Positions 2-50,821 of a DNA stretch of 64,000 nt are shown here, in pieces. The position numbers were made by a program, and so were the translations under genes. How positions within the stretch are numbered: position 1 is the first letter of the stretch; each line of letters begins with the position of its first letter. Location of the stretch: assembly GCA_018401015.1 (NCBI GenBank), contig JAGYLP010000010.1, positions 1 to 64,000 on the forward strand, written 5' to 3'. The DNA comes from Bacteroidales bacterium (lineage in GTDB: Bacteria; Bacteroidota; Bacteroidia; Bacteroidales; M50B96). Below the pieces are notes generated by a model. That model saw only the letters and a program-made list of their open reading frames with translations. It was not told the DNA's origin and ran no database searches.

Positions 2-52
2 GAACAAGGCGATTACACGGGAACCATGACTTTCGAAGTAAAGTATAACTAA
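2..52 (+). CDS. C-terminus of a probable DUF4402-type fimbrial subunit (partial)
   Basis: Only the last 16 codons are in the window; the frame enters from the left and stops with TAA at 50-52. The peptide ends GDYTGTMTFEVKYN. A closing Gly-x-Tyr-Thr-Gly-Thr followed by alternating hydrophobic residues and a terminal Tyr-Asn resembles the last beta strands of DUF4402 / spore-coat-U-like domains, which occur as secreted or fimbrial subunits next to chaperone-usher genes. It lies 99 bases before a PapD-like chaperone on the same strand, which supports a pilin-type subunit. The family call rests on a very short peptide plus context. Confidence 0.5.
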   Translation, partial: EQGDYTGTMTFEVKYN

Positions 53-61
53 TCCTTTTCT

Positions 62-104
62 TTCCGGGCAATGGTTTCCAAATCATTGCCCGGAATTTTC
101 TTTT
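62..104 (+). terminator. Rho-independent terminator between the subunit gene and the chaperone gene
   Basis: A perfect 12-base-pair stem (62-73 with 84-95, core CCGGGCAATG) has a 10-base loop and is followed by TTTTCTTTT. It sits 9 bases after the subunit stop and 48 bases before the chaperone start. If leaky, it would give high subunit expression and lower expression of the assembly machinery downstream. Confidence 0.8.
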
Positions 105-151
105 CGCTCAAAATCAGAAACTAAGTTACATCCCACCTAAAAAAATGAATC

Positions 152-994
152 ATGAAAAAATCACTGCATTCCCTGGTCTCCCTTTGTTTGCTCCTGGTAG
201 CCTCTATTGCGCTTCAAGCCCAGGTTACCATTATGCCAACTTCTATCTTTATTCACGATGCTATGGGAGTGGAGTCGCTGAACATTAGCAACTACTCCGA
301 GACTCCGCAAGAGGTGCGTATCAGCTTCGAATTCTCTTACGCTGGATACGATTCGCTCGGCAACCTGGTTATGGTCGATCACGATACCACCACTGCCGAA
401 CGCTACGGATTAGGTGATTACGTGCGTGCTTTCCCACGAAGCTTTGTGCTTCAGCCAAAGTCGCAACAACTAGTACGTGTTCAGGTGAAACCCATGCGCG
501 ACAAAACCGATGGCACTTATTGGACTCGTATGATTATCAGTAGTAATGCACCGGCCAAGGATATCGAAACCGTTCAAATGGCCGAAGGAGTTGGTACCCG
601 CATCAACTACATCTTTAATCAGAACATTCCGGTGTTCTATAAAAAAGGGAAGGTGAGCACCGGCTTGCAAATCGCTTCGGTCGATGCGCAATTGGGAAAC
701 GAGCAACTCGACGTGGTAGCACGCCTCATTCCACAAGGGAATTCGCCCTACAACGGAAGCGTGCAAGCGCGCATTGTCGATGAAAAAGGCGATTTAGTAG
801 CCGAAAAAGAAACCAATACCGTGGTGTATTTCGAAGCGCTACGTCGCGTAGAGATTCCACTTCCCGAAGCCGGATTGCCCAGCGGTAACTATCAGGTAGA
901 ACTGCTCTACCAAACCCAACGCCGGGATATTGGCACCAAAGAACTTGTTCAGACGGAACCCGTTCGCTACAATTTCCCCCTGAACGTAAAATAA
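152..994 (+). CDS. PapD-like periplasmic pilus chaperone
   Basis: A 280-residue protein with a signal peptide (MKKSLHS then a hydrophobic core ending LQAQ, about residues 1-24). The mature part is beta-rich and fits the two-domain immunoglobulin fold of fimbrial chaperones. An N-terminal domain (about 25-150) contains 'FVLQPKSQQLVRVQVKP', the strand in which these chaperones cap subunits, and 'DGTYWTRMII', similar to the family's D-G-x-Y-x-x-R motif. A second beta domain follows (about 160-280). In the family, the chaperone binds secreted subunits in the periplasm by donor-strand complementation and hands them to the usher. The usher gene follows after 49 bases. Sequence similarity to PapD/FimC is remote, so the call combines motifs and context. 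Confidence 0.8.
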   Translation: MKKSLHSLVSLCLLLVASIALQAQVTIMPTSIFIHDAMGVESLNISNYSETPQEVRISFEFSYAGYDSLGNLVMVDHDTTTAERYGLGDYVRAFPRSFVLQPKSQQLVRVQVKPMRDKTDGTYWTRMIISSNAPAKDIETVQMAEGVGTRINYIFNQNIPVFYKKGKVSTGLQIASVDAQLGNEQLDVVARLIPQGNSPYNGSVQARIVDEKGDLVAEKETNTVVYFEALRRVEIPLPEAGLPSGNYQVELLYQTQRRDIGTKELVQTEPVRYNFPLNVK

Positions 995-1043
995 CCAACC
1001 AGCATGTTTAACTAACCCTATAACCGATAAAAAAAACGAAAAC

Positions 1044-3953
1044 GTGAAAGCTCTTTATTCTCTAACTCTCGCCCTACTGCTGATGACGGCTTCCCGGAGT
1101 CTGATGGCTCAGGACGACGAGTTTTTACTGAGCTTTCGTCATCCTGCTGTAGGTGGTTACTACATCAATGCTTTGTACAACGAGCATGGTGTGTATTTGC
1201 CGGTAGGGGAGTTGTTCGGATTACTTTACATCCCTCTCGAAAAAGGAGAAACCGGCTTCAGCCTGCAAGGAACCTATCCTGAAGAGCTGGAGTTTTTGAT
1301 TGATCCAGCCGGTTTCACCGCTAAAGTTGGTGGAGAAGCTTTCACCTTGGATCCCACGGAAGTACGCATTGGCGAAATGGATTTATTCCTCGCACCCGCC
1401 GTGTACGAACGCTTGTTCGGATTACTCTTCCAGGTCGATATGAGTGCCTTGAGCCTCAGCCTTACCGCTTTGCATGCCCTGCCGGTAGAGGAACGCAAGC
1501 AACGCGAAAGCTTGCGGAAAGAACTGGAACGTCGGCAAGGCGACAAGCGCGATTTCCCTTTGTTATTTCCTCGTCAGCATCAGCGTTTAACCGGTGGAAT
1601 GGTCGATTACGCCCTGGGTTATACCCATGCACAAGGTTCCAATCAAATGAACTATACCTTTTTAGGCGGCATCGAATTATTAGGTGGCGATATTCAGGGT
1701 AGCGCTTTTGGTACTTTAGGCGATCAAACCAATAGTTTGGGTTTTTCGAATTCGAACTGGCGTTTTGTTCCTCGCGATAACCGTTACCTAACTGCCATTC
1801 GGGTAGGGCAGGTGAACTCGACCAGCATTGCTTCCAGTAATTTTATGGGTGTATCGCTCACTAACGATCCGGTAATGCCTCGCCGCGTTTACGATACCTA
1901 CGTAGTGGAAGGAACTACCATTCCCGACTCCGATGTGGAATTATTGGTCAACAATCAATTGGTCGATTATACCAAAACCGATGAGGTAGGGTATTATCGT
2001 TTCAATTATCCCTTGAATTATGGTACCGCTCGTATCAGCACCCGAATTTATACTCCCTCCGGCGAAGTGATTGTAGAAGAACAACAGATTCAGGTTCCCT
2101 TTACGTTTTTACCAGCCGGAGTGATGGCTTACAACGCGCAAGCCGGTTATGTGCTCAACGATAGCACCAACCTGAGCCTCGAGAATCCGTTTCGGATGCA
2201 TGGCGACGTTGCCTACGGTATTACTAGAGCATTAACCGCTAAAGTGGGAGCCGATTGGTCGCCAAACGATACCTTACCTTTTTATTATGGTAGTGTTTCC
2301 ACCCGTTTATTCAATCAGTACTTATTCAATGTAGATTTGGCTCCCGGCCATTTTTCGCGTGCTAGTGCCAGCGTAACTTACGCCAGCAACAAAAGCATTC
2401 AGTTGGTAGCATCCGATTATTATTCCGAAGGAATGTTCAATACGGGTGCCTTGAACCGCGATTTGCAAGCTAGTTTATACTTGCCTTTTCATGTATTTGG
2501 CATGTTTTCCGGTGTACGATTGGGAGCCGACCAACAGTATTTCCTCAACGGTTCTACCGGTACTCAATATCGTTTCGATTTGAATACCCGGATTGGACGG
2601 ACCATTCTTCGTTTGAATTTCCGTGAGCGGGTGATGCAGGATTTGGAGTTGCCGCTGGAGTATGAGCAGAGTCAAGCTTCTCTCGTAATGAATTACAATG
2701 TAGGACGCTCGGCTGGTTTGCCTCCATTTTTACGCGGTATGTTTATTCGTTTGCAAGCCGATTATGCGGTACGCGAGAATCAGCTAGCGCGGGTTGCTTT
2801 ACAATTTAACCGACCCATAGGCAGTCGCGGACGTATTCAGTTCCGTACCGGATACGATTTTGCTAATCAAGGCTTTACTGCACAGGTATTGCTCACACTC
2901 GATTTATCCTTTATTCGTTCCAATACGCAATACACGCATCAAGCTGGGCAATCGAATCTGTCGCAGAATTTGACCGGTTCAATTGGGTTTGATAATGGGA
3001 ATCATCGAATTATTCCGACAAATCGGAATCAGGTTGGTCAATCGGCTGTTTCGGTTCGCGGATTTGTCGATAAGAACGAGAATTTCTTGTACGACGAAGG
3101 CGAGGAGATCGTTCCTATTCGTAGCCTGAGTCTCGATCAGGGAGCTATGCAGCAGTTAGGTTCCGATACCATTTTGCGTATTTCTCAGCTTCAACCATAC
3201 TGGCGCTACAATGTAAGCATCAATCCGAATGCGATTCCCAACCCGATGTTGGCTCCTTTGGTAAATGAATTTTCTTTCGAAGCCGACCCGAATCAGTATA
3301 AACCCATCGATGTACCTTTGTATCGTACAGCCGTGATCGATGGAACCGTAGTTTATGACGAAGGCGATGGTAAGGCAGAACCCTTGGGCGGATTGCGACT
3401 TTTGCTCGAATCGAATTTCACCACCTTTAGCGAAACCATGCGTACTTTTTCTACCGGTGAGTTTTACGCGATGAACATCCTTCCCGGTAGCTATACTTTA
3501 CGAGTTGATCCGGTTCAGTTAGATTTTCTGGGAGCTCAATCGGAGCCTTCTTCCATCAGCATCAATGTAAGTGCTAAGGCTGAAGGTGATTTCATCGAAG
3601 GATTGAATTTTTACCTGAGTCCGAAAACCGATACTCCTCCGGCCGAGCCTGTTAGCGAACCCGATATTCATCAGTTTGATCAGCTTTATTCGCTAAAGAT
3701 TCAGCAGCATGTGCACCATTACGTAAAGGCGCAGGAGTATTTCTACGAGCGTGATTTCCAGAAAGCACGCGACGAAATTGATGCTGCGTTGAATTTCTAT
3801 GCTACCAATGTAGCCCTTGCCTTGAAAGGGACCATTATGTTTGCCTTGGGCGATCGGAACGAAGCGCAGAAATTGTGGGAAGGTGCCCAAAAGAACGATC
3901 CGGATATACAAATACCCGATTCACAGGAATTGGAGAAAATTATTTTGAACTAA
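1044..3953 (+). CDS. Outer-membrane usher-like protein with a C-terminal TPR module
   Basis: A 969-residue protein starting at GTG, the only start that keeps the whole signal peptide (residues 1-22, ending LMAQ). Residues about 25-170 form an N-terminal domain with the look of an usher chaperone-binding domain ('LPVGELFGLL', 'ALPVEER'). Residues about 190-650 are a long series of aromatic amphipathic strands, as in the usher barrel. Within it, about 283-365 resemble the usher plug ('VVEGTTIPDSDVELLVNNQLVDY', then strands rich in Gly and Tyr). Residues about 670-860 contain beta domains, one with an acidic loop DKNENFLYDEGEE. The last 94 residues (about 876-969) are helical and TPR-like. This tail is not part of classical ushers and resembles the lipoprotein at 5979. 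Expected role: a pore in the outer membrane that assembles and exports a fibre; the periplasmic tail could contact the motor proteins encoded next. Confidence 0.8.
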   Translation: MKALYSLTLALLLMTASRSLMAQDDEFLLSFRHPAVGGYYINALYNEHGVYLPVGELFGLLYIPLEKGETGFSLQGTYPEELEFLIDPAGFTAKVGGEAFTLDPTEVRIGEMDLFLAPAVYERLFGLLFQVDMSALSLSLTALHALPVEERKQRESLRKELERRQGDKRDFPLLFPRQHQRLTGGMVDYALGYTHAQGSNQMNYTFLGGIELLGGDIQGSAFGTLGDQTNSLGFSNSNWRFVPRDNRYLTAIRVGQVNSTSIASSNFMGVSLTNDPVMPRRVYDTYVVEGTTIPDSDVELLVNNQLVDYTKTDEVGYYRFNYPLNYGTARISTRIYTPSGEVIVEEQQIQVPFTFLPAGVMAYNAQAGYVLNDSTNLSLENPFRMHGDVAYGITRALTAKVGADWSPNDTLPFYYGSVSTRLFNQYLFNVDLAPGHFSRASASVTYASNKSIQLVASDYYSEGMFNTGALNRDLQASLYLPFHVFGMFSGVRLGADQQYFLNGSTGTQYRFDLNTRIGRTILRLNFRERVMQDLELPLEYEQSQASLVMNYNVGRSAGLPPFLRGMFIRLQADYAVRENQLARVALQFNRPIGSRGRIQFRTGYDFANQGFTAQVLLTLDLSFIRSNTQYTHQAGQSNLSQNLTGSIGFDNGNHRIIPTNRNQVGQSAVSVRGFVDKNENFLYDEGEEIVPIRSLSLDQGAMQQLGSDTILRISQLQPYWRYNVSINPNAIPNPMLAPLVNEFSFEADPNQYKPIDVPLYRTAVIDGTVVYDEGDGKAEPLGGLRLLLESNFTTFSETMRTFSTGEFYAMNILPGSYTLRVDPVQLDFLGAQSEPSSISINVSAKAEGDFIEGLNFYLSPKTDTPPAEPVSEPDIHQFDQLYSLKIQQHVHHYVKAQEYFYERDFQKARDEIDAALNFYATNVALALKGTIMFALGDRNEAQKLWEGAQKNDPDIQIPDSQELEKIILN

Positions 3954-3957
3954 AAGC

Positions 3958-5949
3958 ATGAACAAGACTTTGACATCGATCCATCGGCAACTTTCCCCAG
4001 CGTGGGGGAGAGGTATGGGATTGCTGTGTCTGCTGGTGCTTGTTCTCTCACTTGGTTCCTTATCCGGACAAGATTCGGTAGTAGTTAGCAATCCGCCCCT
4101 CGATTTGGATAAATTCTTTTCTACCGTTTTGTCCGAAGAGAGTCCACAGGAAACCAAAGTTAAGAGCGACAATATTTTATCGACTCAGGTAAGAACCAAG
4201 AAGGTTCAGGAGAATCAGAAACTCGACGATTATCGCTTGAATTTGCTTAAGTTCCGCTACGAAGAGAAATTGCGTAGCACCCTCGATTTATATTTTGATC
4301 CATCGAGTTATTTTGCGACCATCGATTTAGATGTTTCGATTGAGCAGAGCAAAGAGATTCCGACACTGGAAATTGAAACCGGTGAGCCTGACAACACCAG
4401 TTTGCCGGGCATTCCTTTTGTACCGGAGAGTATGCTTAAGGACCGCGATTCACAAAAGAGCGAGGTTGAGCTCGAGGCTGTGATTAAGGATGTGAAAACA
4501 AGTATTAATCAAGTGAAGCTTACTTTGTTAATCGACAGTTCTTTTACCGAAGAGCAAGTGAGTTTAATGCGTACCATGGCTTCGTCCACCCTTAATTTGC
4601 GGCCGGAGCGAGGCGATCAGATTATTATGCGATTGTATGCTTTCCCCGGACGCCAGGAGCCGATGATTCGCTCAACGGTGTCGAACGATTCCTTGCGAGT
4701 GTATTCCGATCGTGATGTGGTAGCAGAAGTGAAAAATTCACCTCAGGAAGACGAACCCACCTTGTCGCGGTCCAATTTATGGATTTGGGTTTTGCTACTC
4801 ATTTTAGCATTTTTCCTTTCCTTGTTTATAGCGAATCTACTGCGCAAACGTCGCACCGACAGCGACGAATCGGCCGTGATGGTTAATCCGGGTCATGCCC
4901 TACAGGCTATTGATGCTCAGTTGCCTGATAGGCGTGTAGCCATGAGTTCCGCTTTCGACGATGAATCGCTCGACCAAATGATGAAAGCCTTCATTGAGAC
5001 CCCTGAACAGATTGCCTACTTGTTTGATCAGTGGATATCTTTATCGGAAAGCAAGGGTGCCCGCAAAGCAGCTCAATTGATTCATTTAACTGACTCTCGT
5101 TTTTTACCCATGCTCGAACCCTTTATGAGCAAGGAAATTTGTGGTTTAGTGAATCGAGCCTACGAGGACCAGCGCGACCTCTTCCTGGAGTTGAGTAATA
5201 TTGAAATACAACGCTTACGATCCGAGTTTGCACATATCTTACGAAGCGAGGTTTTAGGTAATTTGAGCGAATTCCGTTTCCTAAATTATGTGTCGAACGA
5301 TATCATTCTCCGAATTTGCCGAGACTTATCGCATGAGCAGACTGCTATTCTGATTAAAAATCTTCCTACGGAAAAGGCTTCGGAATTGATTAAGAGTTTG
5401 AATCCGCTCAATGCCGGACGCGTTTTATACCTGATTGGTAAAAAGGATTTTTACGATTCGGAAGCATTGAAACAAACTGCTCGTAAAGTTTTTATGGATT
5501 ACGTTCAGTTGAACAATGCTGTGGAGTATAAAGATAAGAACGTGACCTCACTTATAAAGATTATCGAAGATTTACCTGTTGATAATCAGAGTAGTATGTT
5601 GCGAATGCTCAGCGAGCAAGATCCCGATTTATACAACATGGTACGGAAGCATATTTTCACTTGGGATCATATTTTCAGCTTCAGCAACCGCATTCTGCGC
5701 GAGGCTTTGGTTTCGGTCGAAAGTCGCAGCATTGCTTTTGCGATTGTGGACATGCGCGAGGAGCATGCCGATCGACTTTTGCAAATACGCTCCGAGCGTG
5801 AGCAGCAGTTAATCATGGAAATGATTGCCAATCAGGAAATGATTCCCGACGAGGATATTGAAGAAGCCAAATTATTGATTATCCGTACGGTTAAATCGTA
5901 TGTCGATCATGAAAACAGAAGAGATGCGCTGGTTAAATCGGCCTCTTAA
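3958..5949 (+). CDS. FliF-like / FliG-like fusion protein (rotor ring plus switch domain)
   Basis: A 663-residue protein starting 4 bases after the usher stop. Residues 1-37 hold an N-terminal hydrophobic segment (signal peptide or anchor). Residues about 95-235 match the third ring-building domain of FliF: 'YEEKLRSTLDLYF', then 'VKLTLLIDSSFTEEQ' and 'LRPERGDQIIM...FP', the ERGD motif typical of FliF just before its second membrane helix. A transmembrane helix follows (273-293), then RKRR. Residues about 330-405 resemble the FliG N-domain and about 430-520 the FliG middle domain, with HEQTA at 459-463 near the family EHPQ motif. Residues about 540-655 match the FliG C-domain ('MVRKHIFTWDHI', charged helix at 577-590, 'RSEREQQLIMEMI'). 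The first two FliF ring domains are absent. Inferred role: an inner-membrane ring with cytoplasmic torque surface, driven by the MotAB-like pair at 6588-8059. Confidence 0.85.
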   Translation: MNKTLTSIHRQLSPAWGRGMGLLCLLVLVLSLGSLSGQDSVVVSNPPLDLDKFFSTVLSEESPQETKVKSDNILSTQVRTKKVQENQKLDDYRLNLLKFRYEEKLRSTLDLYFDPSSYFATIDLDVSIEQSKEIPTLEIETGEPDNTSLPGIPFVPESMLKDRDSQKSEVELEAVIKDVKTSINQVKLTLLIDSSFTEEQVSLMRTMASSTLNLRPERGDQIIMRLYAFPGRQEPMIRSTVSNDSLRVYSDRDVVAEVKNSPQEDEPTLSRSNLWIWVLLLILAFFLSLFIANLLRKRRTDSDESAVMVNPGHALQAIDAQLPDRRVAMSSAFDDESLDQMMKAFIETPEQIAYLFDQWISLSESKGARKAAQLIHLTDSRFLPMLEPFMSKEICGLVNRAYEDQRDLFLELSNIEIQRLRSEFAHILRSEVLGNLSEFRFLNYVSNDIILRICRDLSHEQTAILIKNLPTEKASELIKSLNPLNAGRVLYLIGKKDFYDSEALKQTARKVFMDYVQLNNAVEYKDKNVTSLIKIIEDLPVDNQSSMLRMLSEQDPDLYNMVRKHIFTWDHIFSFSNRILREALVSVESRSIAFAIVDMREEHADRLLQIRSEREQQLIMEMIANQEMIPDEDIEEAKLLIIRTVKSYVDHENRRDALVKSAS

Positions 5950-5978
5950 ATACAAAAAAGAATAAAGGACAAAAGAAT

Positions 5979-6482
5979 ATGAAAGTTACAGCAACATTAA
6001 AACAAGCGTTTTTCATCCTAACGATAGCACTTATATCGGTTAGTTCGTGTACCACTCAACGATCAACCGCTATTGTCGATTACGGTAAAAGCATGCAAGC
6101 ACCACCCAAACAGGAAGAGGTAGCCGACACACCTGCCTTATTGGCCGATAGTTCCACCGATGGACAATTGGCAATCGACGAGGAGAGTATTCAGCGTTCT
6201 TATATCGAGCGGGCCAATCAGGCATTAAAATATTATTTGAAAGCACAGGTTTCATTCCGAAATAAAAAATACCAGCAAGCACTCGATTTTATCAATTACT
6301 CGCTTAATACAGAATTTACAGCCGATGCTAGTGCTTTGAAAGGAAGTATTCTCTATAAAATGAGTTCAACCCGCGAGGCAGTCGAAGCCTGGAAGCTTGC
6401 TTATGAGACTAATCCGGCCAGTATCAATGCCGATTTGCCCGGTTTCCGCGATGCTTATCAGGCATTTTTGAAAAACCAGTAA
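5979..6482 (+). CDS. TPR-containing lipoprotein
   Basis: A 167-residue protein with an AAGGA ribosome-binding site upstream. The signal sequence ends VSSC, so Cys24 is the probable lipidated residue. The C-terminal half (about 78-165) forms TPR-like helices: 'YYLKAQVSFRNKKYQQALDF' and 'ALKGSILYKMSSTREAVEAW'. This half aligns with the C-terminal module of the usher at 1044-3953 (shared pattern Y-x-K-A-Q, then A-L-K-G-[ST]-I-[ML], then EA-x-x-W/L-W), so the two probably derive from one module. It lies between the FliF/FliG-like gene and the stator genes. Possible roles are a pilotin for the usher or a link between the outer membrane and the rotor; neither is shown by the sequence. Confidence 0.75.
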   Translation: MKVTATLKQAFFILTIALISVSSCTTQRSTAIVDYGKSMQAPPKQEEVADTPALLADSSTDGQLAIDEESIQRSYIERANQALKYYLKAQVSFRNKKYQQALDFINYSLNTEFTADASALKGSILYKMSSTREAVEAWKLAYETNPASINADLPGFRDAYQAFLKNQ

Positions 6483-6587
6483 TTCAATTCCCGACCGGGC
6501 AAGTGAATCCGGTCTTGCATTCCTGATGGAACGGAATGGTGGTGGTGTTTTTTGTTCGAGTAAGTTAAACGGATTGATTCTTCTCCC

Positions 6588-7376
6588 ATGCGCATCAATG
6601 TTTTCAGTATCCTCATTATTGTTTTTTCCCTGAGTATTTTTACCCTCGGACTCCTGGAGGTTTCGGGTATTTATCCCTGGGCTCCCGAATTTAAAGAAAC
6701 GCGCTTTCTGAATCTTCCCAGCTTATTCATCCTGTTAGGTGGCCTCATGAATTATGCAGCGGTTACGCGTCCGCCGAAAGATTTTCTCATCATTTTGCGC
6801 GCCATCGGTATCTATTTTTCCCACGGACGAAACGATCGGGCGGAGCATAAGCGCAGCATCGATACCATCATTTCCTGGCAAAACATGCTCAAAAAAGACC
6901 GGCTCGATTCCCTTACTGTGCTAAGCCGCAAATACCGGAACTCGTTCGAAGGTTATGTTTTCTCCCTCATCCTGACCAATTATTCCTACGATGAGGTGAA
7001 AATTTTAGGAGAACTCGAAATCGATTCCCGCTATCGGAACACCGCAGCCGGCAGTCAAATTTTAGCCCAGCTAGGCAATGCCAGCCCGGCTTTTGGCATG
7101 CTCGGAACACTCATTGGTTTAATTTCCATGATGAACTATTTTGAAGATCCCTTGCAATTGGCTTCGGGGTTAACGGTGGCTCTCATGACGACTCTGTACG
7201 GTCTCGTTTTAGCGCAATTTCTGTGGTATCCGCTTAGTAATAAGCTGAAAAATTATGCACAGATAGAGGCTTACCGAAACAAAATTTATCTGGAAGGGAT
7301 TATCCTCATTGCCAAAAATAGACCCCCACTGTACATTAAAGATTACCTCCGGGCGCTCATAAAAAGCGAAGTATGA
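6588..7376 (+). CDS. MotA-like stator subunit (MotA/TolQ/ExbB proton channel family)
   Basis: A 262-residue membrane protein with four predicted transmembrane helices (about 5-25, 42-60, 166-184 and 190-213) and a cytoplasmic loop between helices 2 and 3, the MotA layout. Helices 3 and 4 carry the family signature: 'GNASPAFGMLGTLIGLISM' with Pro167 and Thr173, a short loop with FEDP, then 'TVALMTTLYGLVLAQFLWYP' with Thr201/Thr202 and Pro215. The pattern, including the '..DP..L..G..VAL..TLYG' linker, is closer to MotA/PomA than to ExbB, TolQ or GldL. It would form the pentameric ring around the MotB-like subunit and press on the FliG-like domain encoded at 3958-5949. The stop overlaps the next start by 4 bases (ATGA), implying translational coupling. 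Confidence 0.88.
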   Translation: MRINVFSILIIVFSLSIFTLGLLEVSGIYPWAPEFKETRFLNLPSLFILLGGLMNYAAVTRPPKDFLIILRAIGIYFSHGRNDRAEHKRSIDTIISWQNMLKKDRLDSLTVLSRKYRNSFEGYVFSLILTNYSYDEVKILGELEIDSRYRNTAAGSQILAQLGNASPAFGMLGTLIGLISMMNYFEDPLQLASGLTVALMTTLYGLVLAQFLWYPLSNKLKNYAQIEAYRNKIYLEGIILIAKNRPPLYIKDYLRALIKSEV

Positions 7377-8059
7377 AAAATCAAACGGAGCCGGACTGGA
7401 AAAACGACACAAACCTCGATGATTCAGGTAATTCCGAATCCCTTTGGATGATTAGTTACCTGGATACGTTTACCCTGTTGTTGGTATTTTTTGTCTTGAT
7501 AACCATTATTACCGGCAAGCAAATGAACTTGACCGAAGCCGAAAAACGGGAGTTAACCAGCTCTTTCACAGGGGAGGAGCATGTAAGGTATCCGCTGCAA
7601 GAACTTTTGCTCGACTTGAACCTTTTGCTGGAAAGCGAAAAAGAGGCCGGAAGAGTGATTATTACCTCCGATGAAAATGAGCTGAGGCTTCAGTTCCCGG
7701 GCAGCTCTTTCTTCTTAAGCGGGGAAGCCAATGTTTTGCCAAACGGAAAAGCAATCTTAGAAAAGATTGTGGGTGTAACCCACCGCTTGAAACATTACCC
7801 GTTTAAAATCGATGTGGAGGGTCATGCCGATAATCGTCCAATTAATTCGTCGGTTTTTCCGAGTAATTGGGAACTGTCGGCGGCACGAGCGGCTAACATC
7901 GTTAAATCTTTTATTGAATCGGGTTACGACCCGAAACGCCTCAAAGCTTCCGGCTATGGCGATACTTTTCCTCTCAAACCCAACGAAGATATTTTAGGTA
8001 ACCCAATTCCCGAAAACCTCGATTTGAACCGTCGCGTGGTGATTCGTTTGTATTTCTGA
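7373..8059 (+). CDS. MotB-like stator subunit with OmpA peptidoglycan-binding domain
   Basis: A 228-residue protein. One transmembrane helix (about 24-46) begins LWMISYLDTFTLLLVFFVLI. This matches the MotB helix W-M-x-S-F-x-D-x-x-T-L-L-L-x-F-F-V-L, and Asp31 stands at the proton-carrying aspartate (Asp32 of Escherichia coli MotB). Residues about 100-228 are an OmpA-like domain ('VEGHADNRPI', 'NWELSAARAANIV', 'ASGYGDTFP', 'NRRVVI') that anchors the stator to peptidoglycan. It overlaps the MotA-like gene by 4 bases and closes the same-strand run. The retained aspartate indicates a working ion channel. MotAB-like pairs also occur in gliding motors (GldLM) and Zorya defence systems; the adjacent FliG-like partner favours a rotary stator here. 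Confidence 0.9.
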   Translation: MKNQTEPDWKNDTNLDDSGNSESLWMISYLDTFTLLLVFFVLITIITGKQMNLTEAEKRELTSSFTGEEHVRYPLQELLLDLNLLLESEKEAGRVIITSDENELRLQFPGSSFFLSGEANVLPNGKAILEKIVGVTHRLKHYPFKIDVEGHADNRPINSSVFPSNWELSAARAANIVKSFIESGYDPKRLKASGYGDTFPLKPNEDILGNPIPENLDLNRRVVIRLYF

Positions 8060-8174: not shown

Positions 8175-9392
8175 ATGCTGCTCGGACAAACAGATTATTT
8201 GGTAATTGGCGGTGGAATCATTGGACTTTCCATTGCGCGGGAATTGAATCGACGTGTTCCATCGGCTAAAATTATAGTTTTGGAGAAGGAGACCCAGGTT
8301 GCAGGCCATGCCAGTGGTCGAAACAGCGGTGTGCTCCATGCCGGATTTTATTATACAGCCGATTCGCTCAAGGCAAAATTTACCCGCGACGGAAACCTCG
8401 AAATGCAGGCTTATTGTCGCGAGCATCAGTTGCCGCTGAACCCAAGTCGTAAGGTGGTAGTAGCCCGCAACGAACGTGAATGGGCTACACTTCAAAATCT
8501 CTTGGAGCGGGGGAAAGCCAATGGAGTGAGGGTTTCCCTCATCGACGAAAACGAACTTCGGAGCATCGATCCCAATGTGAAAACTTTTCGCCACGCCTTG
8601 CTTTCGCCCGATACAGCTACCGTTAATCCCACCTTGGTAACGCAGACACTTAAAAATGAATTACGAGCCAAAGGAGTGAAATTTTTGTTCGAGGAGGCAT
8701 ACCGATCGCGGATCGAAGGGAATAAAATCATCACGAGTCTGAATAATGTAATTGAAGCCCGAAAGATTTACAATGCAGCAGGTTTATATGCCGATCAGAT
8801 TGCCCGCGATTTTGGTTTTTCGCACCATTATACCATCATCCCCTTTAAAGGCATCTATTTGAAATACAAGGGAATAAATCCACCAGTTAGCTTGAATGTT
8901 TATCCGGTTCCTAATTTGAAAAACCCTTTTCTAGGCGTTCATTTTACGCTTACGGTAGATGGTGAAGTGAAAATTGGACCTACTTCCATTCCAGCTTTTT
9001 GGCGAGAAAACTACCAAGGTTTCGATCGGTTTAACTTGCTGGAAGTTGGTCGAATACTGGGTTGGGAGGCACGCTTGTTTTTGGAGAATGCCTTCGGATT
9101 TCGCGATTTGGCGCGGGAGGAAGTGAAGAAGTACCGGCGATCTTATTTCGTCGCTTTAGCTTCCTCGATGGTGCATCAACTCGATAGCGATGGCTTTACC
9201 GAATGGGGGAAGCCAGGGATTCGGGCCCAGTTGCTCGATAAACGCAACCACGAGTTGGTAATGGATTTTGTAGTCGAAGGCGATGTTCGATCGGTTCATG
9301 TCTTGAATGCTGTTTCACCGGCTTTTACCGGAGCTTTCCCTTTTGCCCGCTACGTGGTCGAAAATTCCTGGCTAACAAAAACGTCATCCTAA
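8175..9392 (+). CDS. lhgO: L-2-hydroxyglutarate dehydrogenase/oxidase family FAD enzyme
   Basis: A 405-residue protein of the DAO superfamily. The N-terminal dinucleotide-binding motif is 'YLVIGGGIIGLSIA' followed by 'VLEKE', and the LhgO hallmark 'HASGRNSGVLHAGFYY' follows. The C-terminal substrate region has 'KIGPTSIPAF' and a closing 'NAVSPAFTGAFPFA'. In the family it oxidises L-2-hydroxyglutarate to 2-oxoglutarate and passes electrons to the membrane quinone pool. It stands alone, 115 bases after the motor genes, and is probably a separate transcription unit. Length is normal. Confidence 0.88.
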   Translation: MLLGQTDYLVIGGGIIGLSIARELNRRVPSAKIIVLEKETQVAGHASGRNSGVLHAGFYYTADSLKAKFTRDGNLEMQAYCREHQLPLNPSRKVVVARNEREWATLQNLLERGKANGVRVSLIDENELRSIDPNVKTFRHALLSPDTATVNPTLVTQTLKNELRAKGVKFLFEEAYRSRIEGNKIITSLNNVIEARKIYNAAGLYADQIARDFGFSHHYTIIPFKGIYLKYKGINPPVSLNVYPVPNLKNPFLGVHFTLTVDGEVKIGPTSIPAFWRENYQGFDRFNLLEVGRILGWEARLFLENAFGFRDLAREEVKKYRRSYFVALASSMVHQLDSDGFTEWGKPGIRAQLLDKRNHELVMDFVVEGDVRSVHVLNAVSPAFTGAFPFARYVVENSWLTKTSS

Positions 9393-9838: not shown

Positions 9839-12049
9839 ATGTCTGATAATGAAAAGCTCGAGCAGCATACTCCTGCTCCTAACGATTTGAATGCCACCGA
9901 AAACCCATCATCGCTCTCAACGAATGATGCGTCAGTACCGGATGAAACCCCGATTCAGGAAGAAAACGAGGTCCTTTCGACTAACGCCGAACCAGCACTA
10001 AGTTCCTCTCCCAAAGAAGAAGACCTTCAAGCAGTGCCGGATCAATCCGATTCGACCGAACCAGTGGAAGTTGCACCGGTCGATCCAACGTCGGATGAAG
10101 TTGTAAACGAATCGAATACCACGAAAGAGGAAGACGTTCAAGTTCCCGAAGCGGAAAAAGAGGAGGACGTAAAAGAAGCTGATTCACCTGTCTCGGAAGA
10201 AGCTGTTGCTCCTGTTGAGGCCGTTGACTCCGATGCAGAAACCCATGCCGAAGCAGCTTCTGAACCACAGGACGAAGAAAAACACGAGGACGAAGAAGAG
10301 GAAGAGGAACTTGCTGAAGGCCAGGTTGATCTGAATAAGCTGAGTAAGCAGGAATTAGTTGAATTGCTCGAGGAGCAGGTAAATTCGACCCCAATCGAGG
10401 AAATTACCTTCGATGTGGACCGGATTAAATCCTTGTACTACAAAATCTATCGTGCCGAGGTTGAAAACATGCGTCGCGCTTTTATTGCCGAAGGAGGCGA
10501 ATCGGCCGAATTTACCTACGATCCCGACCCACTCGAAGAACGTCTCAAGCAAGCTGTAAGCTTGTTCAAGCGTTTGAAATCGGAGTATATGGCAGCCCAG
10601 GAAAAAATCAAGCTGTTAAATCTGGCACACAAGTTCGAAATAATCGAAAAGATTAAAGAACTGATCAATGGTCAGGAATCCCTCAATAAAACCTTCAACG
10701 ATTTTAAATCCCTTCAACATCAATGGCATGAGGTAGGCCCTATTCCGCAAGGAGAAATGAAGAATCTGTGGGAAACCTATCACCATACCGTTGAGCAGTT
10801 TTACGATTACATTAAAATTAATCGGGAATTACGCGATTTAGATCAAAAGAAGAATTGGGAAGCGAAAGTGGCTATTTGCGAACGAGCCGAAGAACTCTTG
10901 TTGGAGCCTAGTGTGGTTAAAGCATTTAAAGCTTTGCAGGAATTGCACGATCGCTGGCGAGAAATCGGGCCGGTTAGCCCCGAGAAGCGAGAGGAAGTAT
11001 GGCAACGCTTCAAGCAAGCTACCACCACCATCAATAAGAACCATCAGGATTATTTCGAAAACCTGAAGAAAGAGCAACAAACCAATCTTGATGCTAAGCG
11101 CGCTTTGGTCGAAAAAGCTGAAGAACTCGCCGATTTATCCATTCAGGACTTGAAAGAATGGGATAAAAAATCGGAAGAATTACTCGAGCTACAAAAACTT
11201 TGGAAGACGATTGGATTTGCAACGAAGAAGGAGAACAACAAGGTATTCGAAGATTTTCGTACCGCTTGCGATCGATTCTTTGCCAAGAAACGCGAATTTT
11301 TTCAGGAATTTAAAGGAGAACAACAGGAGAACTTGCAGCTTAAAACCGATTTATGTCTTCAGGCCGAAGCCATTAAAGATAGCGACGACTGGAGATCGAC
11401 TTCCCAGGAGCTCATCGCCTTACAAAAGCGCTGGAAAGAAATTGGTCCGGTTCCCAGAAAACATTCCGATGCCCTGTGGAAGCGATTTCGGAGTGCTTGC
11501 AATGCTTTCTTCGACCGTAAGAACAAGCATTTTGAGAACATCGATTCGATTCACGATGAAAACTTGCAGCAAAAATTTGCCTTAATCGACAAGATTAAGT
11601 CTTATGTAAAGTCCGACAGTGCCGAAGAGAATATCGCCGCCTTACGCGAGTTCCAGAACGAATGGAGCGCGATTGGTCATGTTCCTATGAAACAGAAAGA
11701 TAAGGTGCAAGAGGAATATCGCGAAGCCTTATCTGCTCAATACGAAAAACTGAAAATCGACGAAGGAAAACGAAACGTACTTCAGTTCAAGCAAAAGCTC
11801 GAGAACCTTCAGCAAGACGGTCAAGGTGTAAAGAAGAACAAGCAAATGAATTATGAGCGCGATCGCATTCTTAACCGCATTCGGCAGCTTGAAGCAGATA
11901 TTCAGTTACTCGATAACAACATTGGCTTCTTTGCAAAGACCAAAAATGCCGAAAGCCTCATCAACGACGTGAAGCAAAAAATTGAACGAGCCAGGAAACA
12001 AATACAAGTAGAGAAACAAAAACTCGATGTGCTTCATAAATTTGAATAA
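9839..12049 (+). CDS. DUF349 repeat protein with acidic N-terminal region
   Basis: A 736-residue soluble protein. Residues about 1-165 are low-complexity and strongly acidic (Glu, Asp, Pro, Ser, Val). From about 190 on it is helical, with repeated DUF349 units recognisable by the recurring 'W.EIGPVP......W.RF..A....F....' pattern: 'WHEVGPIPQGEMKNLW', 'WREIGPVSPEKREEVW', 'WKTIGFATKKENNKVF', 'WKEIGPVPRKHSDALW', 'WSAIGHVPMKQKDKV'. The last 100 residues are a charged coiled coil. The family is conserved in Bacteroidota and its function is not established. It is monocistronic, between a promoter element and a strong terminator. Confidence 0.85.
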   Translation: MSDNEKLEQHTPAPNDLNATENPSSLSTNDASVPDETPIQEENEVLSTNAEPALSSSPKEEDLQAVPDQSDSTEPVEVAPVDPTSDEVVNESNTTKEEDVQVPEAEKEEDVKEADSPVSEEAVAPVEAVDSDAETHAEAASEPQDEEKHEDEEEEEELAEGQVDLNKLSKQELVELLEEQVNSTPIEEITFDVDRIKSLYYKIYRAEVENMRRAFIAEGGESAEFTYDPDPLEERLKQAVSLFKRLKSEYMAAQEKIKLLNLAHKFEIIEKIKELINGQESLNKTFNDFKSLQHQWHEVGPIPQGEMKNLWETYHHTVEQFYDYIKINRELRDLDQKKNWEAKVAICERAEELLLEPSVVKAFKALQELHDRWREIGPVSPEKREEVWQRFKQATTTINKNHQDYFENLKKEQQTNLDAKRALVEKAEELADLSIQDLKEWDKKSEELLELQKLWKTIGFATKKENNKVFEDFRTACDRFFAKKREFFQEFKGEQQENLQLKTDLCLQAEAIKDSDDWRSTSQELIALQKRWKEIGPVPRKHSDALWKRFRSACNAFFDRKNKHFENIDSIHDENLQQKFALIDKIKSYVKSDSAEENIAALREFQNEWSAIGHVPMKQKDKVQEEYREALSAQYEKLKIDEGKRNVLQFKQKLENLQQDGQGVKKNKQMNYERDRILNRIRQLEADIQLLDNNIGFFAKTKNAESLINDVKQKIERARKQIQVEKQKLDVLHKFE

Positions 12050-45551: not shown

Positions 45552-45687
45552 ACATTTATCGTACTTGCCTAAACCCCATCATACTATAATTCCGTAATGA
45601 ACAGTTCTTTGTTAACAAGAAGTTAGCGCACTTCCTGCTCACTGAGAGTTTGTTTTTATCTTTACAACAATCATTAATGATGTGGAT

Positions 45688-48600
45688 ATGAAGTCTATTT
45701 TGCTCAAAATTAGCATAATAGCAGGTATGTTGCTGCCTGCTGTTTCGACCCTTTTTTCTCAAGAACCGATTTTAAATAACGACACTGAACGCCTCTTTTA
45801 CGAAGCTTCCTCTTTCTACGAAAAAGGGATGTACGTAAATGCTCGCAAAGTGTTTGAAGAGGTCGTTGATGAACTCGATAATAATCAGTCAATTATGCTG
45901 ATAGATGCCCGTTACTACGTTGCCAAATGCGCGCTCTTGATGGACGAACGGGATGCGGAGTATATTTTGAAGCAATTCTCACTTGCTTACCCAAACGATT
46001 CGCGGGTAAATGATCTCTACTTCGAAATGGGCCGATTGCAGTTTATGAAGAAAAAATACCCCAAATCCATCAATTGGTTCGAACTGGTCGATAAAACCGC
46101 ACTTTCTTTCCAAGATCGGATGCATTATCACTTCGAACTAGGCTACAGCTACTTCGCCAAAGAAGAATACGAACCAGCGCGAATTGCATTCTACGAAATA
46201 AAAGACTTAGCAGGCGAGTATTATGCCACCGCCAATTATTATTACGGGCACATCGCGTATTTGACTGAAGATTATCAAACCGCTCTCAATGCTTTCGAAC
46301 GCATTGCAAGTGAACCCGATTTCTCCAACATCGTCCCTTTCTACCTCATTCAAATTTATTTCATTCAAGGCGATTACGAAAAAATCAAAACCTTGGGACC
46401 CGAACTGATGGAGAAATCTTCCGAAGCACGTGCGGTAGAGATTGTTCGCCTGATTGGTGAAGCCTATTTTCACACCCGTGAATTTGAGCAAGCAATTCCT
46501 TATCTGCAAGCTTATAAAGATCACACTGAATCATACAGTCGCGACGATATTTATCAGCTTGCCTATGCTTACTATCAGACCAAGGATTGGCAAAATGCTA
46601 TCGAGAATTTTGAAAAGCTCACCCGTGGAGAAAGTGAATTAACTCAAAACGCCTATTTCCACCTGGCCGATTGCTATTTGCAAATCGACGATAAGCAAAA
46701 AGCGGGAATGGCTTTTGGTGCTGCCGCTACCATGCCTTACGATGAAGTGATTGCAGAAGAATCGCTCTTTAATCAAGCTAAATTAAGCTTCGACATGTCG
46801 TATTCTCCCTTTAATCAAACCATTCGACTGTTCGATGAGTTTTTGCGAAAGTACCCCAATAGTCTGTATCGCGATATGGCCTACGATTATTTGGTCAAAG
46901 TATTCATGGCCACTCGTAATTACGATGAGGCACTTACCTATCTTGAAAAAATCGAGGAGAAAAACGACCCAATCAAGACAGCTTATCAGCGTGCTGCTTA
47001 TTTCCGTGCTGTCGAATACTTTATCGATAATGATTTTGATCGTGCCGTTTTAACTTTCGAGAAATCCTTGCGCTACGGTCACCTCAATCCTTCGCTTAAA
47101 TCGCAGGCGCATTATTGGACTGCCGAAGCGCATTATCGCTTAGGATACTATCCAAAGGCCATCGATTGGTATCAGAAATTCATGAACCTCGCATCATCGG
47201 TGAATCAACCCGAATATCCATCGGCATTCTATAACACCGCTTATGCTCATTTTCAGCTTAAAGACTACGATCAAGCCATTCTGTGGTTTCGTCGCTTCCT
47301 AAATAGGGAATCGAAAGCAGAAGTACTCAAGTCCGACGCGACCATTCGTTTGGCCGATTGCTACTACAAAACTCGTCAGTTCGACGAGGGGATTCGGTAT
47401 TATGATTTGGCCATTAAACAAGCACCGGAAAAAGCCGATTATGCTAGTTATCAAAAAGCAATTTCCTATGGTTTGTTGCGCGAATACGATAAGAAAAACT
47501 GGGTGCTGCGCCAAATGATTGAGCAACATACCAATTCCAAATACCGGGTAGATGCTTTGTTTCAGTTGGGTCGGTCGTATCAGGATTTAAACGACCTTAA
47601 CCCTGCGATTGCTGCCTATCGACAGTTAGCTGAGGAGTTTCCAAACAGCACTTATGTTACTCAAGCCTATAATCAAATTGGATTAATTTATTACAATCTG
47701 GATCAATCTGAAGAGGCCTTGGAGGTTTACAAATGGGTAGTGGATAGTTTCCCTCAATCGCCCGACGCGATTACCGCACTGGAAAGTATTGAGCGCATTT
47801 ACCTCGAGAATAACCGCGAACAGGAATATTTTGCCTGGCGCGATGGCTTGCAAGGTGTTTCAAAACTGAGCATCAATGAGAAGGACTCTATTTCCTACCT
47901 AACTGCCGAAAAATTCTATATGCGTTCGCAATTTGAACAAGCTGCTCAGGCTTTTGCCAATTACATTCGCGATTTTGCCGATGGCGCCTGGATCATCGAA
48001 GCGCACTACTACAAGGCCGATTGCCATCGTCGACTAAATCAAGATAAGCCGGCCTTTGAATCGTATGCTTTCGTAGCTTCTCGTTCCATGAATTCTTTTA
48101 CCGAAGAATCCCTGGTTCAAGCAGCCCGAATCAGTATGAAATGGGATGATTACCCGCTGGCACTAGCCTATTATAAAAAGTTGGAGAGCATGGCCGGTAA
48201 TAAAGAGTATTTGGTTGAGTCGCGCATTGCTCAAATGCAGTGTCATTATCATTTGGAGCAGTGGGAAGAGGCAATTTTGTCGGCTAATGTGGTGCTTATA
48301 TCCGACCTGGTTCCCGACAAAACAAAGAGCGAAGCCCATTTCATTCTGGGGAAATCATTTTTAGCAAACGATGATTTGTCATCTGCTATCAATGAATTCA
48401 AATACCTGGAATCCATGACTCAAAGCATTTTGGGGGCAGAGGCACGTTATCGAATCGCAGAAATTTTATTCGCTCAGCAAAAATACGACGAATGCGAGCA
48501 GGAAATTCTCGATTTTAATCAAACCAACACCCCCCATCAATTCTGGCTAGCGAAAGCAATTGTGCTTCTTTCCGATGTTTACCTGGCCAAAAAAGATTAT

Positions 48601-49050
48601 TTCCAGGCACGCCATACACTCGAAAGCATTATTCAGTTTTATGCTGTACCTACCGATGGCATTATTGAAAGTGCTCAGGAACGATTGCAGATCATCTTGC
48701 GAAAAGAAGAGGAAGAAACCCTCTTTAAACATGAATTGGATAAAGCCGCGGTCAAGGATTCAGTCAGTTTGGAGTTGGATTCAGCTTCAGATTCGAAAGA
48801 GGGAATCGATTCTAACGAGTTGATGGAAAATCCTGAAGAGGAAACTACACCTACTGAGGGATTTGACACCCTTTCGATCGATTCTGACGCAAATAATCTG
48901 GTTATTCCGCCAACTGAGGAGGAAATAGACCAACCCGCCGAGGAAGAACTTCCGCAACCTCCTGTTGACGAGGAAACCGACGAAGCGATAGAACATTCCG
49001 GGAATGAGGACGAAACTGAGGCTAATGAGGAGGGTGCAAGCGATGAATAA
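45688..49050 (+). CDS. Large secreted TPR protein
   Basis: About 1120 residues from ATG 45688 (a GTG lies two codons upstream). A signal peptide covers about the first 25 residues (ending TLFSQ). Then come roughly 25 TPR or TPR-like repeats to about residue 1010, recognisable by recurring 'A.Y......A...F......P' patterns ('EYFIDNDFDRAVLTFEKSLRYGHLN', 'AQAFANYIRDFADG'). The last 100 residues are acidic and Pro-rich. It is likely a periplasmic or outer-membrane-associated scaffold. It overlaps the reading frame upstream of the barrel gene at 49112, and the two are probably cotranscribed. I do not recognise a named homologue. Confidence 0.85.
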   Translation: MKSILLKISIIAGMLLPAVSTLFSQEPILNNDTERLFYEASSFYEKGMYVNARKVFEEVVDELDNNQSIMLIDARYYVAKCALLMDERDAEYILKQFSLAYPNDSRVNDLYFEMGRLQFMKKKYPKSINWFELVDKTALSFQDRMHYHFELGYSYFAKEEYEPARIAFYEIKDLAGEYYATANYYYGHIAYLTEDYQTALNAFERIASEPDFSNIVPFYLIQIYFIQGDYEKIKTLGPELMEKSSEARAVEIVRLIGEAYFHTREFEQAIPYLQAYKDHTESYSRDDIYQLAYAYYQTKDWQNAIENFEKLTRGESELTQNAYFHLADCYLQIDDKQKAGMAFGAAATMPYDEVIAEESLFNQAKLSFDMSYSPFNQTIRLFDEFLRKYPNSLYRDMAYDYLVKVFMATRNYDEALTYLEKIEEKNDPIKTAYQRAAYFRAVEYFIDNDFDRAVLTFEKSLRYGHLNPSLKSQAHYWTAEAHYRLGYYPKAIDWYQKFMNLASSVNQPEYPSAFYNTAYAHFQLKDYDQAILWFRRFLNRESKAEVLKSDATIRLADCYYKTRQFDEGIRYYDLAIKQAPEKADYASYQKAISYGLLREYDKKNWVLRQMIEQHTNSKYRVDALFQLGRSYQDLNDLNPAIAAYRQLAEEFPNSTYVTQAYNQIGLIYYNLDQSEEALEVYKWVVDSFPQSPDAITALESIERIYLENNREQEYFAWRDGLQGVSKLSINEKDSISYLTAEKFYMRSQFEQAAQAFANYIRDFADGAWIIEAHYYKADCHRRLNQDKPAFESYAFVASRSMNSFTEESLVQAARISMKWDDYPLALAYYKKLESMAGNKEYLVESRIAQMQCHYHLEQWEEAILSANVVLISDLVPDKTKSEAHFILGKSFLANDDLSSAINEFKYLESMTQSILGAEARYRIAEILFAQQKYDECEQEILDFNQTNTPHQFWLAKAIVLLSDVYLAKKDYFQARHTLESIIQFYAVPTDGIIESAQERLQIILRKEEEETLFKHELDKAAVKDSVSLELDSASDSKEGIDSNELMENPEEETTPTEGFDTLSIDSDANNLVIPPTEEEIDQPAEEELPQPPVDEETDEAIEHSGNEDETEANEEGASDE

Positions 49051-49111
49051 TAAAGGACGGAACAAGCAAACGATTAGGATTAGTCGTTATTTAACTCAAA
49101 ATCAAATTACT

Positions 49112-50821
49112 ATGAGAATTGGATTTGCATTTAGTGTTTTCTTGCTATTGAGCTTGGGCTGGAACATTTCCTCTTTGGCTCAGGACGATATTGTGAATAT
49201 TACCCGAACCTACGAACCGACTATTTCTGAGGCTCGCAAGCTTGATTTTCGACCAACCATTCAGGATACCTTGCAGGTTCAACCCTCGTTCGACTATCGG
49301 ATTGTACCTGTTCAGTTAAGGATGAGTTTCCGACCGGAACCAATTCGGGCAGCAAAGCTTATTCCCTCGCGCGAGGAATACCGATATGGCAACTTTATCC
49401 GTCTTGGCTTTGGAACGAATATTTCTCCCCTGGTCGATGTGCGGTTGTTCCATACGTATAAACGAAGCTGGAAGCTTGGGTTGGAAGCGAAACACGAATC
49501 GGCTTTCCCGAAATTCTCCCTCAACGACCAGGATTATTATCCTCACTTTAACCGATCCGAATTGAAGTTGTCGGGAATTCGTTTCCATCACCGCAATCAA
49601 ATTCGAACCGAGATTGGATTTGTAAGCGAAGGGGCGCCCTTCTATGGATTCGATTTCGATTCAGGAATTATTCCGGCCTTCGACTCACTCAGTAATCGGC
49701 AAGTTTCCGTGTTGAATGCTGCCGCTCAATTCAAAAGCCTTAACTTATCACGTAATTATTTCAAAGTTGATTACGCTTTCGATTATTATTTCCTTTTCGA
49801 TAATGCTGAAACCCGTGAGCATGGGGTGAGTTTGGGCGCTATGGCTACCAAAGGACTTCGATCCTACGATTTAAATCTTCCGCTGAAATTGGAACTTTTC
49901 CATTGGACTAACCCCGATTCAACACGCACCAACGTGAATATTCGTTTTAATCCATTTATTAGCAAAGAAAAAGATGAGTGGAAAGCTATTTTGGGGCTGA
50001 ATTCGGCAACGAAGCTGGATGCCAACGATGAATGGCGCTTTTTCATTTATCCCAATCTACAATTTGAATTTGCTTTAGCCGAGGAATACTTGCATTCTTA
50101 CTTTGGTTTTACAGGGGAAATGAAAGATAATTTCTTCTTTTCAACGTATTCCGATAATCCCTTTGTGAGCGGATCCTATTGGTTAAAGCCAACTGAAATC
50201 AGAAAAAATATCTTCGTCGGGGTGCGCGGATTAATCACCTCTCAGCTCAAGTATCATGTGAAAGCAAGCTATTTGGAATATCGCGATTTGATGCTCTATC
50301 GTGGCGAATGGAATACCATGAACACCTATCAATTCCAACCATTATACACGAATGCCGACCGCTTTAATGGATTGCTCGAAGTTAGCTACTCTTTCAAAAA
50401 CGATCTGCAAGTGGGCTTGGTGCTGAACTACGATCAGTACTTTTCCTTTTCACAACCACAAGAGTTTCCCGGTAGTACGATTGAATCGGCCTTTTTTATT
50501 CCGAACTGGAATGGAAACTTATTTGCCCGCTACGATTACAATCAATACCTGAGCTTTTCGACCGATTTTACCTTCCTGTCTAACCGAACTGCGCTGAACT
50601 TATCCACTTATGATCCTCTTGGGATGCCCATCCTTCCAATCTTTATGGAAGAAAATTTAGGCGAGGTTTATCAATGGAATCTCGGAGTCGATTATAAATA
50701 CAACTCCAAGGTTACTGCCTTCCTGAAGCTGGAAAATTTGCTCGGGCAGAAATACTGGATTTACGATAATTATCCTTCGCAAGGTTTTCGAGCCAGGATT
50801 GGGGTGAGCTATTTCTTTTAA
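49112..50821 (+). CDS. Outer-membrane beta-barrel protein (TonB-receptor-like barrel)
   Basis: About 569 residues from ATG 49112, which begins a signal peptide ('MRIGFAFSVFLLLSLGWNISSLAQ'). After a short proline-containing segment ('YEPTISEARKLDFRPTIQDTL') the protein is a series of aromatic amphipathic strands and ends 'RARIGVSYFF'. The last strands ('VTAFLKLENLLGQKYWIYDNYPSQGFRARIG') resemble the closing strands of TonB-dependent receptors, but no plug domain or TonB box was recognised. It follows the TPR protein directly, suggesting a joint envelope function. Confidence 0.8.
   Translation: MRIGFAFSVFLLLSLGWNISSLAQDDIVNITRTYEPTISEARKLDFRPTIQDTLQVQPSFDYRIVPVQLRMSFRPEPIRAAKLIPSREEYRYGNFIRLGFGTNISPLVDVRLFHTYKRSWKLGLEAKHESAFPKFSLNDQDYYPHFNRSELKLSGIRFHHRNQIRTEIGFVSEGAPFYGFDFDSGIIPAFDSLSNRQVSVLNAAAQFKSLNLSRNYFKVDYAFDYYFLFDNAETREHGVSLGAMATKGLRSYDLNLPLKLELFHWTNPDSTRTNVNIRFNPFISKEKDEWKAILGLNSATKLDANDEWRFFIYPNLQFEFALAEEYLHSYFGFTGEMKDNFFFSTYSDNPFVSGSYWLKPTEIRKNIFVGVRGLITSQLKYHVKASYLEYRDLMLYRGEWNTMNTYQFQPLYTNADRFNGLLEVSYSFKNDLQVGLVLNYDQYFSFSQPQEFPGSTIESAFFIPNWNGNLFARYDYNQYLSFSTDFTFLSNRTALNLSTYDPLGMPILPIFMEENLGEVYQWNLGVDYKYNSKVTAFLKLENLLGQKYWIYDNYPSQGFRARIGVSYFF

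Follow-up and report, generated by a model that had tools for sequence, protein, structure and literature searches.

A flagellar-type motor encoded together with a chaperone-usher fibre system in Bacteroidota

The described machines closest to the locus treated here are the flagellar motor, the type 1 (FimD) and P (PapC) pili, the GldLM motor of type IX secretion, and the ExbBD-TonB and TolQR-TolA complexes. The locus is a seven-gene operon in a 64,000-nucleotide stretch of a Bacteroidales bacterium genome (GCA_018401015.1, contig JAGYLP010000010.1, positions 1 to 64,000; hereafter the window), in which flagellar-type motor genes follow those of a chaperone-usher fibre. It shares with the flagellar motor the FliF RBM3 domain, a complete FliG, MotA, MotB with an OmpA anchor, and ion-channel residues; it differs in that FliF and FliG are fused, RBM1 and RBM2 are absent, an usher replaces the rod, and the genome has neither the FliM/N switch nor the FlhA export gate. 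Type 1 and P pili likewise have a FimD-like plugged barrel with C-terminal domains, and the putative PapD-like chaperone and small secreted subunits of the operon would be further features in common; an usher TPR tail, an ion-driven motor in the operon and DUF4402-like subunits set the present system apart. GldLM resembles the present system as an ion-driven inner-membrane motor acting through the periplasm on a Bacteroidota outer-membrane system, although it acts on SprA, not on an usher, and GldL and GldM are not FliF, FliG or MotAB; by profile and structure, the motor genes here are MotA, MotB and FliG. In the ExbBD-TonB and TolQR-TolA complexes, MotAB-family stators also act on outer-membrane proteins, but through a single TonB or TolA transducer and with no FliF or FliG rotor. 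The parts of the operon come from known families, and the assembled machine matches no described kind known to us. The first-pass annotation, made from the sequence without database searches, knew of no such system, and our searches of the open-access literature on flagellar rotors and stators together with ushers, chaperones, Bacteroidetes or gliding turned up no description of one. One survey reports that 11% of non-motile species have rotor proteins but no filaments, and suggests that these proteins could serve another function (PMC12199754); the locus described here offers a concrete alternative for part of that group.

We propose that the operon encodes a machine that spans the envelope and couples a flagellar-type rotary motor to a chaperone-usher fibre, so that torque reaches the usher or the fibre, a reading that we consider probable. 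By homology, MotA5MotB2 stators, held to the peptidoglycan by the OmpA domain of MotB, would pass ions and turn, and would push a ring of FliF-FliG subunits with the FliG part in the cytoplasm and the RBM3 part forming a small periplasmic ring. This rotor would be joined to the usher, which assembles and holds the DUF4402-type fibre, by the TPR lipoprotein and by the usher's own TPR tail; these two are natural links, since the C terminus of the usher and RBM3 are both periplasmic. Torque passed to the usher or the fibre may then lead to twisting, movement or rotation. As FliM and FliN are missing, the motor should turn in one direction, without switching. Fusion of FliF to FliG is compatible with rotation, given that a Salmonella fusion-deletion mutant still rotates, as cited in PMC9389320. 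The first-pass annotation had put forward such a powered fibre; its parts and their coupling are well supported by the results below, whereas ring formation, ion flow, rotation and the delivery of force to the fibre are steps that we infer.

The gene list, coordinates, single strand and gaps given in that annotation were all correct. Six full genes and the tail of a subunit gene lie on the plus strand at 2-8059, with successive gaps of 99, 49, 4, 29, 105 and -4 bases and with intact reading frames. The central gene (3958-5949) encodes a 663-amino-acid (aa) protein with what looks like a cleavable signal sequence at its N terminus, followed by a periplasmic RBM3 domain, one transmembrane helix and a cytoplasmic FliG. 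Its AlphaFold2 model has a helix-strand-strand-helix-strand domain (residues 91-227), a transmembrane helix (269-302), and FliG helices from residue 335. Residues 85-230 (4210-4647) align with the FliF RBM3 ring domain of 8z5v_A (Z 14.1; root-mean-square deviation [rmsd] 2.0 over 94 residues). The three FliG domains, N, M and C (residues 366-653; 5053-5916), align with full-length FliG 8wiw_3 (Z 15.9), and residues 568-653 with the C-terminal FliG domain that is bound to MotAB in 8ucs_H (Z 12.0; rmsd 1.8). In Pfam, the protein matches FliG_C (E 2.8e-12), and its 18 homologues match FliG_C (18/18), FliG_M (14/18) and YscJ_FliF_C (11/18; best 1e-5). A profile built from these homologues matches solved FliG (8.5e-29) and FliF (0.008), and it also picks out FliF-like genes adjoining flagellar fliG in other genomes, with domain E values of 1.6e-7 to 1e-4. 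Because of the structure matches, the homologue profiles and the FliF-like genes beside fliG, we identify the protein as a fusion of FliF to FliG in which RBM3 and the second transmembrane helix are retained, whereas RBM1 and RBM2 are absent. The FliF/FliG-like call of the first-pass annotation thus withstood profile searches that could have placed the protein elsewhere. A search of viral contigs returned no relative of it.

The three genes that follow encode the remainder of the motor. The TPR lipoprotein (5979-6482; 167 aa) matches TPR_21 (E 3.2e-6), and its lipobox Cys24 is invariant among aligned homologues. MotA (6588-7376; 262 aa) matches MotA_ExbB (4.7e-19) and solved flagellar MotA 8gqy (1.6e-25), and retains the TM3/TM4 pore motifs SPAFGMLGT and MTT.YG. 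MotB (7373-8059; 228 aa) matches MotB_plug (3.3e-7) and the peptidoglycan-binding OmpA domain (2e-14), and its membrane Asp31 and Trp25 are invariant in 18 homologues. The two other MotA/ExbB-family genes of the genome accompany ExbD-like genes, one of them also a TonB-like gene, which makes the operon MotA the sole flagellar-type MotA of the genome. The MotB proteins of usher-linked Balneolaceae loci are unusually long, at 501-627 aa (L053:5665-7356, L057:11247-13130 and L060:11539-13044). The L053 protein has three SPOR domains, a domain that in some motor-free ushers is found on the usher tail itself.

Upstream of the motor genes lies the fibre module. The usher (1044-3953; 969 aa) has no Pfam usher match; its AlphaFold2 model (predicted local distance difference test score, 84) matches FimD, with a Foldseek E value of 4.6e-30 and a VIA Z score of 25.3 over residues 176-760, whereas the next unrelated barrel scores 15.6. 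Structure comparison therefore places the protein among the FimD/PapC-type outer-membrane ushers, with their large barrel, plug and C-terminal domains. In addition, it bears a C-terminal TPR tail (residues 875-968; 3666-3947), recognized from helical repeats in the model and a TPR_2 match. A second, distant usher of the same genome (L134:8454-10913; G000 contig C39) sits at a contig end and has no TPR tail or motor. Directly 5' of the usher gene, as in nearly every related locus, is the gene for a putative PapD-like periplasmic chaperone (152-994; 280 aa). It matches PapD_N below the Pfam cut-off (E 0.0036), and 3 of 15 homologues match weakly (best 6.7e-4); a comparison of the chaperone profile with PDB matched no solved structure. 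The first gene (2-52) is the C-terminal end of a DUF4402-like fibre subunit, truncated by the contig start. Its translation, EQGDYTGTMTFEVKYN followed by a stop codon, gives the last 16 residues of the subunit and closes with GDYTGTMTFEVKYN, an ending shared by subunits at the equivalent position of related loci. In those relatives, the small secreted proteins encoded upstream match DUF4402 weakly; they and the 16 window residues are what a comparison with the Ig-like, donor-strand subunits of chaperone-usher pili can draw on.

Gene order provides the first line of evidence that fibre and motor belong together. Among the 395 genomes searched within the class, five further carriers were found, all from one other family (f57). 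The four f57 genomes examined in full have the order subunits, chaperone, usher, FliFG, TPR lipoprotein, MotA, MotB, at about 15-41% protein identity. The same order recurs elsewhere in the phylum, in Balneolaceae (f91) and family f89, and also in an Ignavibacteriae metagenome-assembled genome (L090). Retention of this order at a protein identity of only about 15-40% is far beyond chance, and the usher-motor linkage that the first-pass annotation had singled out for checking is kept across several families and phyla. Proteins sorted by the type IX secretion system (T9SS) to the surface are encoded directly 5' of the fibre subunits at L013:17387-19000, L014:18136-19899 and L063:3-2228, and may serve the system as cargo or adhesins.

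The second line of evidence is the co-occurrence of the TPR tail with the motor. We pooled 57 named loci from an usher-only search, whose query alignment consisted of motor-linked ushers, with the window and three further loci; these four, which did not come from the scan, had been picked as motor loci. All 22 tailed ushers are followed by a motor, as against none of the 34 untailed ones, and five loci are cut too soon to judge. The TPR-tail profile behind these counts was built from motor-linked ushers, and Pfam, run on six motor-free ushers, gave no TPR. Motor-free ushers stop near residue 880 or bear a SPOR domain in place of the TPR tail. On a tree of the usher bodies, the tail-motor trait changes at least nine times, and all 9 independent pairs agree (sign test, p 0.0039). 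Whether or not a single recombination moved the two together, the tail is part of the motor module.

The motor also occurs without the usher, and is therefore a separate module. In Balneolaceae and family f98, the FliFG-TPR-MotA-MotB set is present without an usher or chaperone and adjoins a gene for a secreted protein, about 360-390 aa long. This protein matches nothing in Pfam or PDB and is probably, from its sequence, an outer-membrane barrel with a periplasmic domain. Some Balneolaceae genomes contain both kinds of motor. Trees of FliFG, of MotA and of MotB all divide by locus type in the same way, with the usher-free kinds forming separate groups in each, which indicates that the three proteins have been inherited together. 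This arrangement was not noticed in the first-pass annotation. Usher-free Balneolaceae loci (L055:8514-13564, L058:5679-10711, L059:8347-13404, L064:5627-10886 and L069:7829-12892) have the order FliFG, putative outer-membrane protein, TPR protein, MotA, MotB, and at L055 genes for T9SS-tail surface proteins lie 5' of the motor. A third arrangement, in which the outer-membrane protein and TPR genes precede MotA-MotB-FliFG, is found in family f98 (L065:8269-13706, L066:5156-10402 and L068:4435-9714).

Flagellar genes were sought in the genomes that bear the motor. The window genome (2.88 Mb; 99% complete) has one FliG and no FlhA (PF00771) or FliM/N (PF01052); FliM/N was detected in E. coli and other controls, and FlhA in its controls. 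The case that would have refuted the first-pass annotation, a complete flagellar set elsewhere that uses these proteins, was not borne out. FlhA and FliM/N are likewise absent from 23 of the 31 motor-bearing genomes, and the remaining 8 have both, away from the fusion locus. No rod, hook or filament genes are among the operon genes, and the genome was not searched separately for them. On an unrooted tree with some long branches, a single branch (Shimodaira-Hasegawa-like approximate likelihood ratio test [SH-aLRT], 99) separates the FliG domains of the fusions from flagellar FliG. A degenerate flagellum was rejected as an identity for the operon: no export or switch genes were found, the genes are intact and conserved, and their FliG forms a separate lineage.

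Within the proposed machine, the specific case of a rotating pilus, in which the ion-driven FliF-FliG/MotAB motor spins the chaperone-usher fibre or the usher, is a serious possibility, though we would stop short of expecting it. Several points weigh against a motor-driven fibre. Without a rod, it is hard to see how the periplasm between a FliF-type ring and a single usher would be bridged. The fibre subunits of the window genome are cut by the contig end, searches without a positive control found no DUF4402-like subunits elsewhere in that genome, and the identity of the chaperone is weakly suggested by low-scoring profile matches and gene position. The TPR tail adjoins the motor gene, and a single recombination could gain or lose both; the argument from co-occurrence loses some force from this but still stands. 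Finally, the existence of the motor without an usher means that driving a fibre is not its sole role.

It is less probable, but deserves consideration, that the motor powers a step of assembly or secretion at the usher, such as plug opening or the pulling of subunits through it, and does not move the finished fibre; GldLM and type IX secretion offer a comparison. The T9SS, also of Bacteroidota, is run by an ion-powered motor (PMC8986121, PMC9127263), and T9SS-tail proteins are encoded 5' of several motor loci, both usher-linked and usher-free. Against this, closely related ushers have no motor at 34 loci and classical chaperone-usher assembly needs none, so that the core assembly step does not require a motor.

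A gliding or crawling device, in which the motor would transport the usher and its fibre along the envelope as an adhesin complex and not spin them in place, seems to us unlikely: rotors of the FliG ring type have a fixed axis. We also know of no gliding motor so far that has FliF or FliG. Large T9SS-tail surface proteins do occur near usher-free motor loci, and other MotAB-like motors, Agl-Glt and GldLM-SprB, work in this way (PMC9389320). Still less likely is a load sensor, in which fibre tension would alter the engagement of rotor and stator and signal surface contact. Flagellar stators respond to load (PMC9389320), but a Pfam scan found no signalling domains in the operon proteins, and the conserved ion-channel residues suggest a powered function. 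A chance neighbourhood, or a decayed flagellum beside an ordinary fimbrial operon, is very improbable: flagellar remnants persist in some lineages, but here strict order is kept at 15-40% identity, frames and pore residues are intact, the fusions stand apart from flagellar FliG (SH-aLRT 99), and the usher tail is coupled to the motor.

Window base 1 is the first base of its contig (C2), and the upstream fibre-subunit genes are consequently cut off. The downstream genes, encoding an FAD oxidoreductase (8175-9392) and a DUF349 protein (9839-12049), are unrelated to the operon according to Pfam. Farther along, at 45682-50821, the gene for a 1,122-aa TPR protein overlaps that for a 605-aa protein without a Pfam match.

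To our knowledge, no chaperone-usher system with an energy source has been described, and this one would be the first. It would also extend the list of three ion-driven rotary machines given in a 2022 review (PMC9127263). If the rotating pilus is real, evolution has coupled a modular flagellar-type motor to at least two different outer-membrane systems with no type III export apparatus. The locus shows that a flagellar rotor-stator core can exist independently of type III export, a point that has a bearing on how the parts of the flagellum came together. In some Bacteroidota that lack flagella, and in relatives of theirs, the conserved gene set thus suggests a powered surface fibre of a kind not described before.

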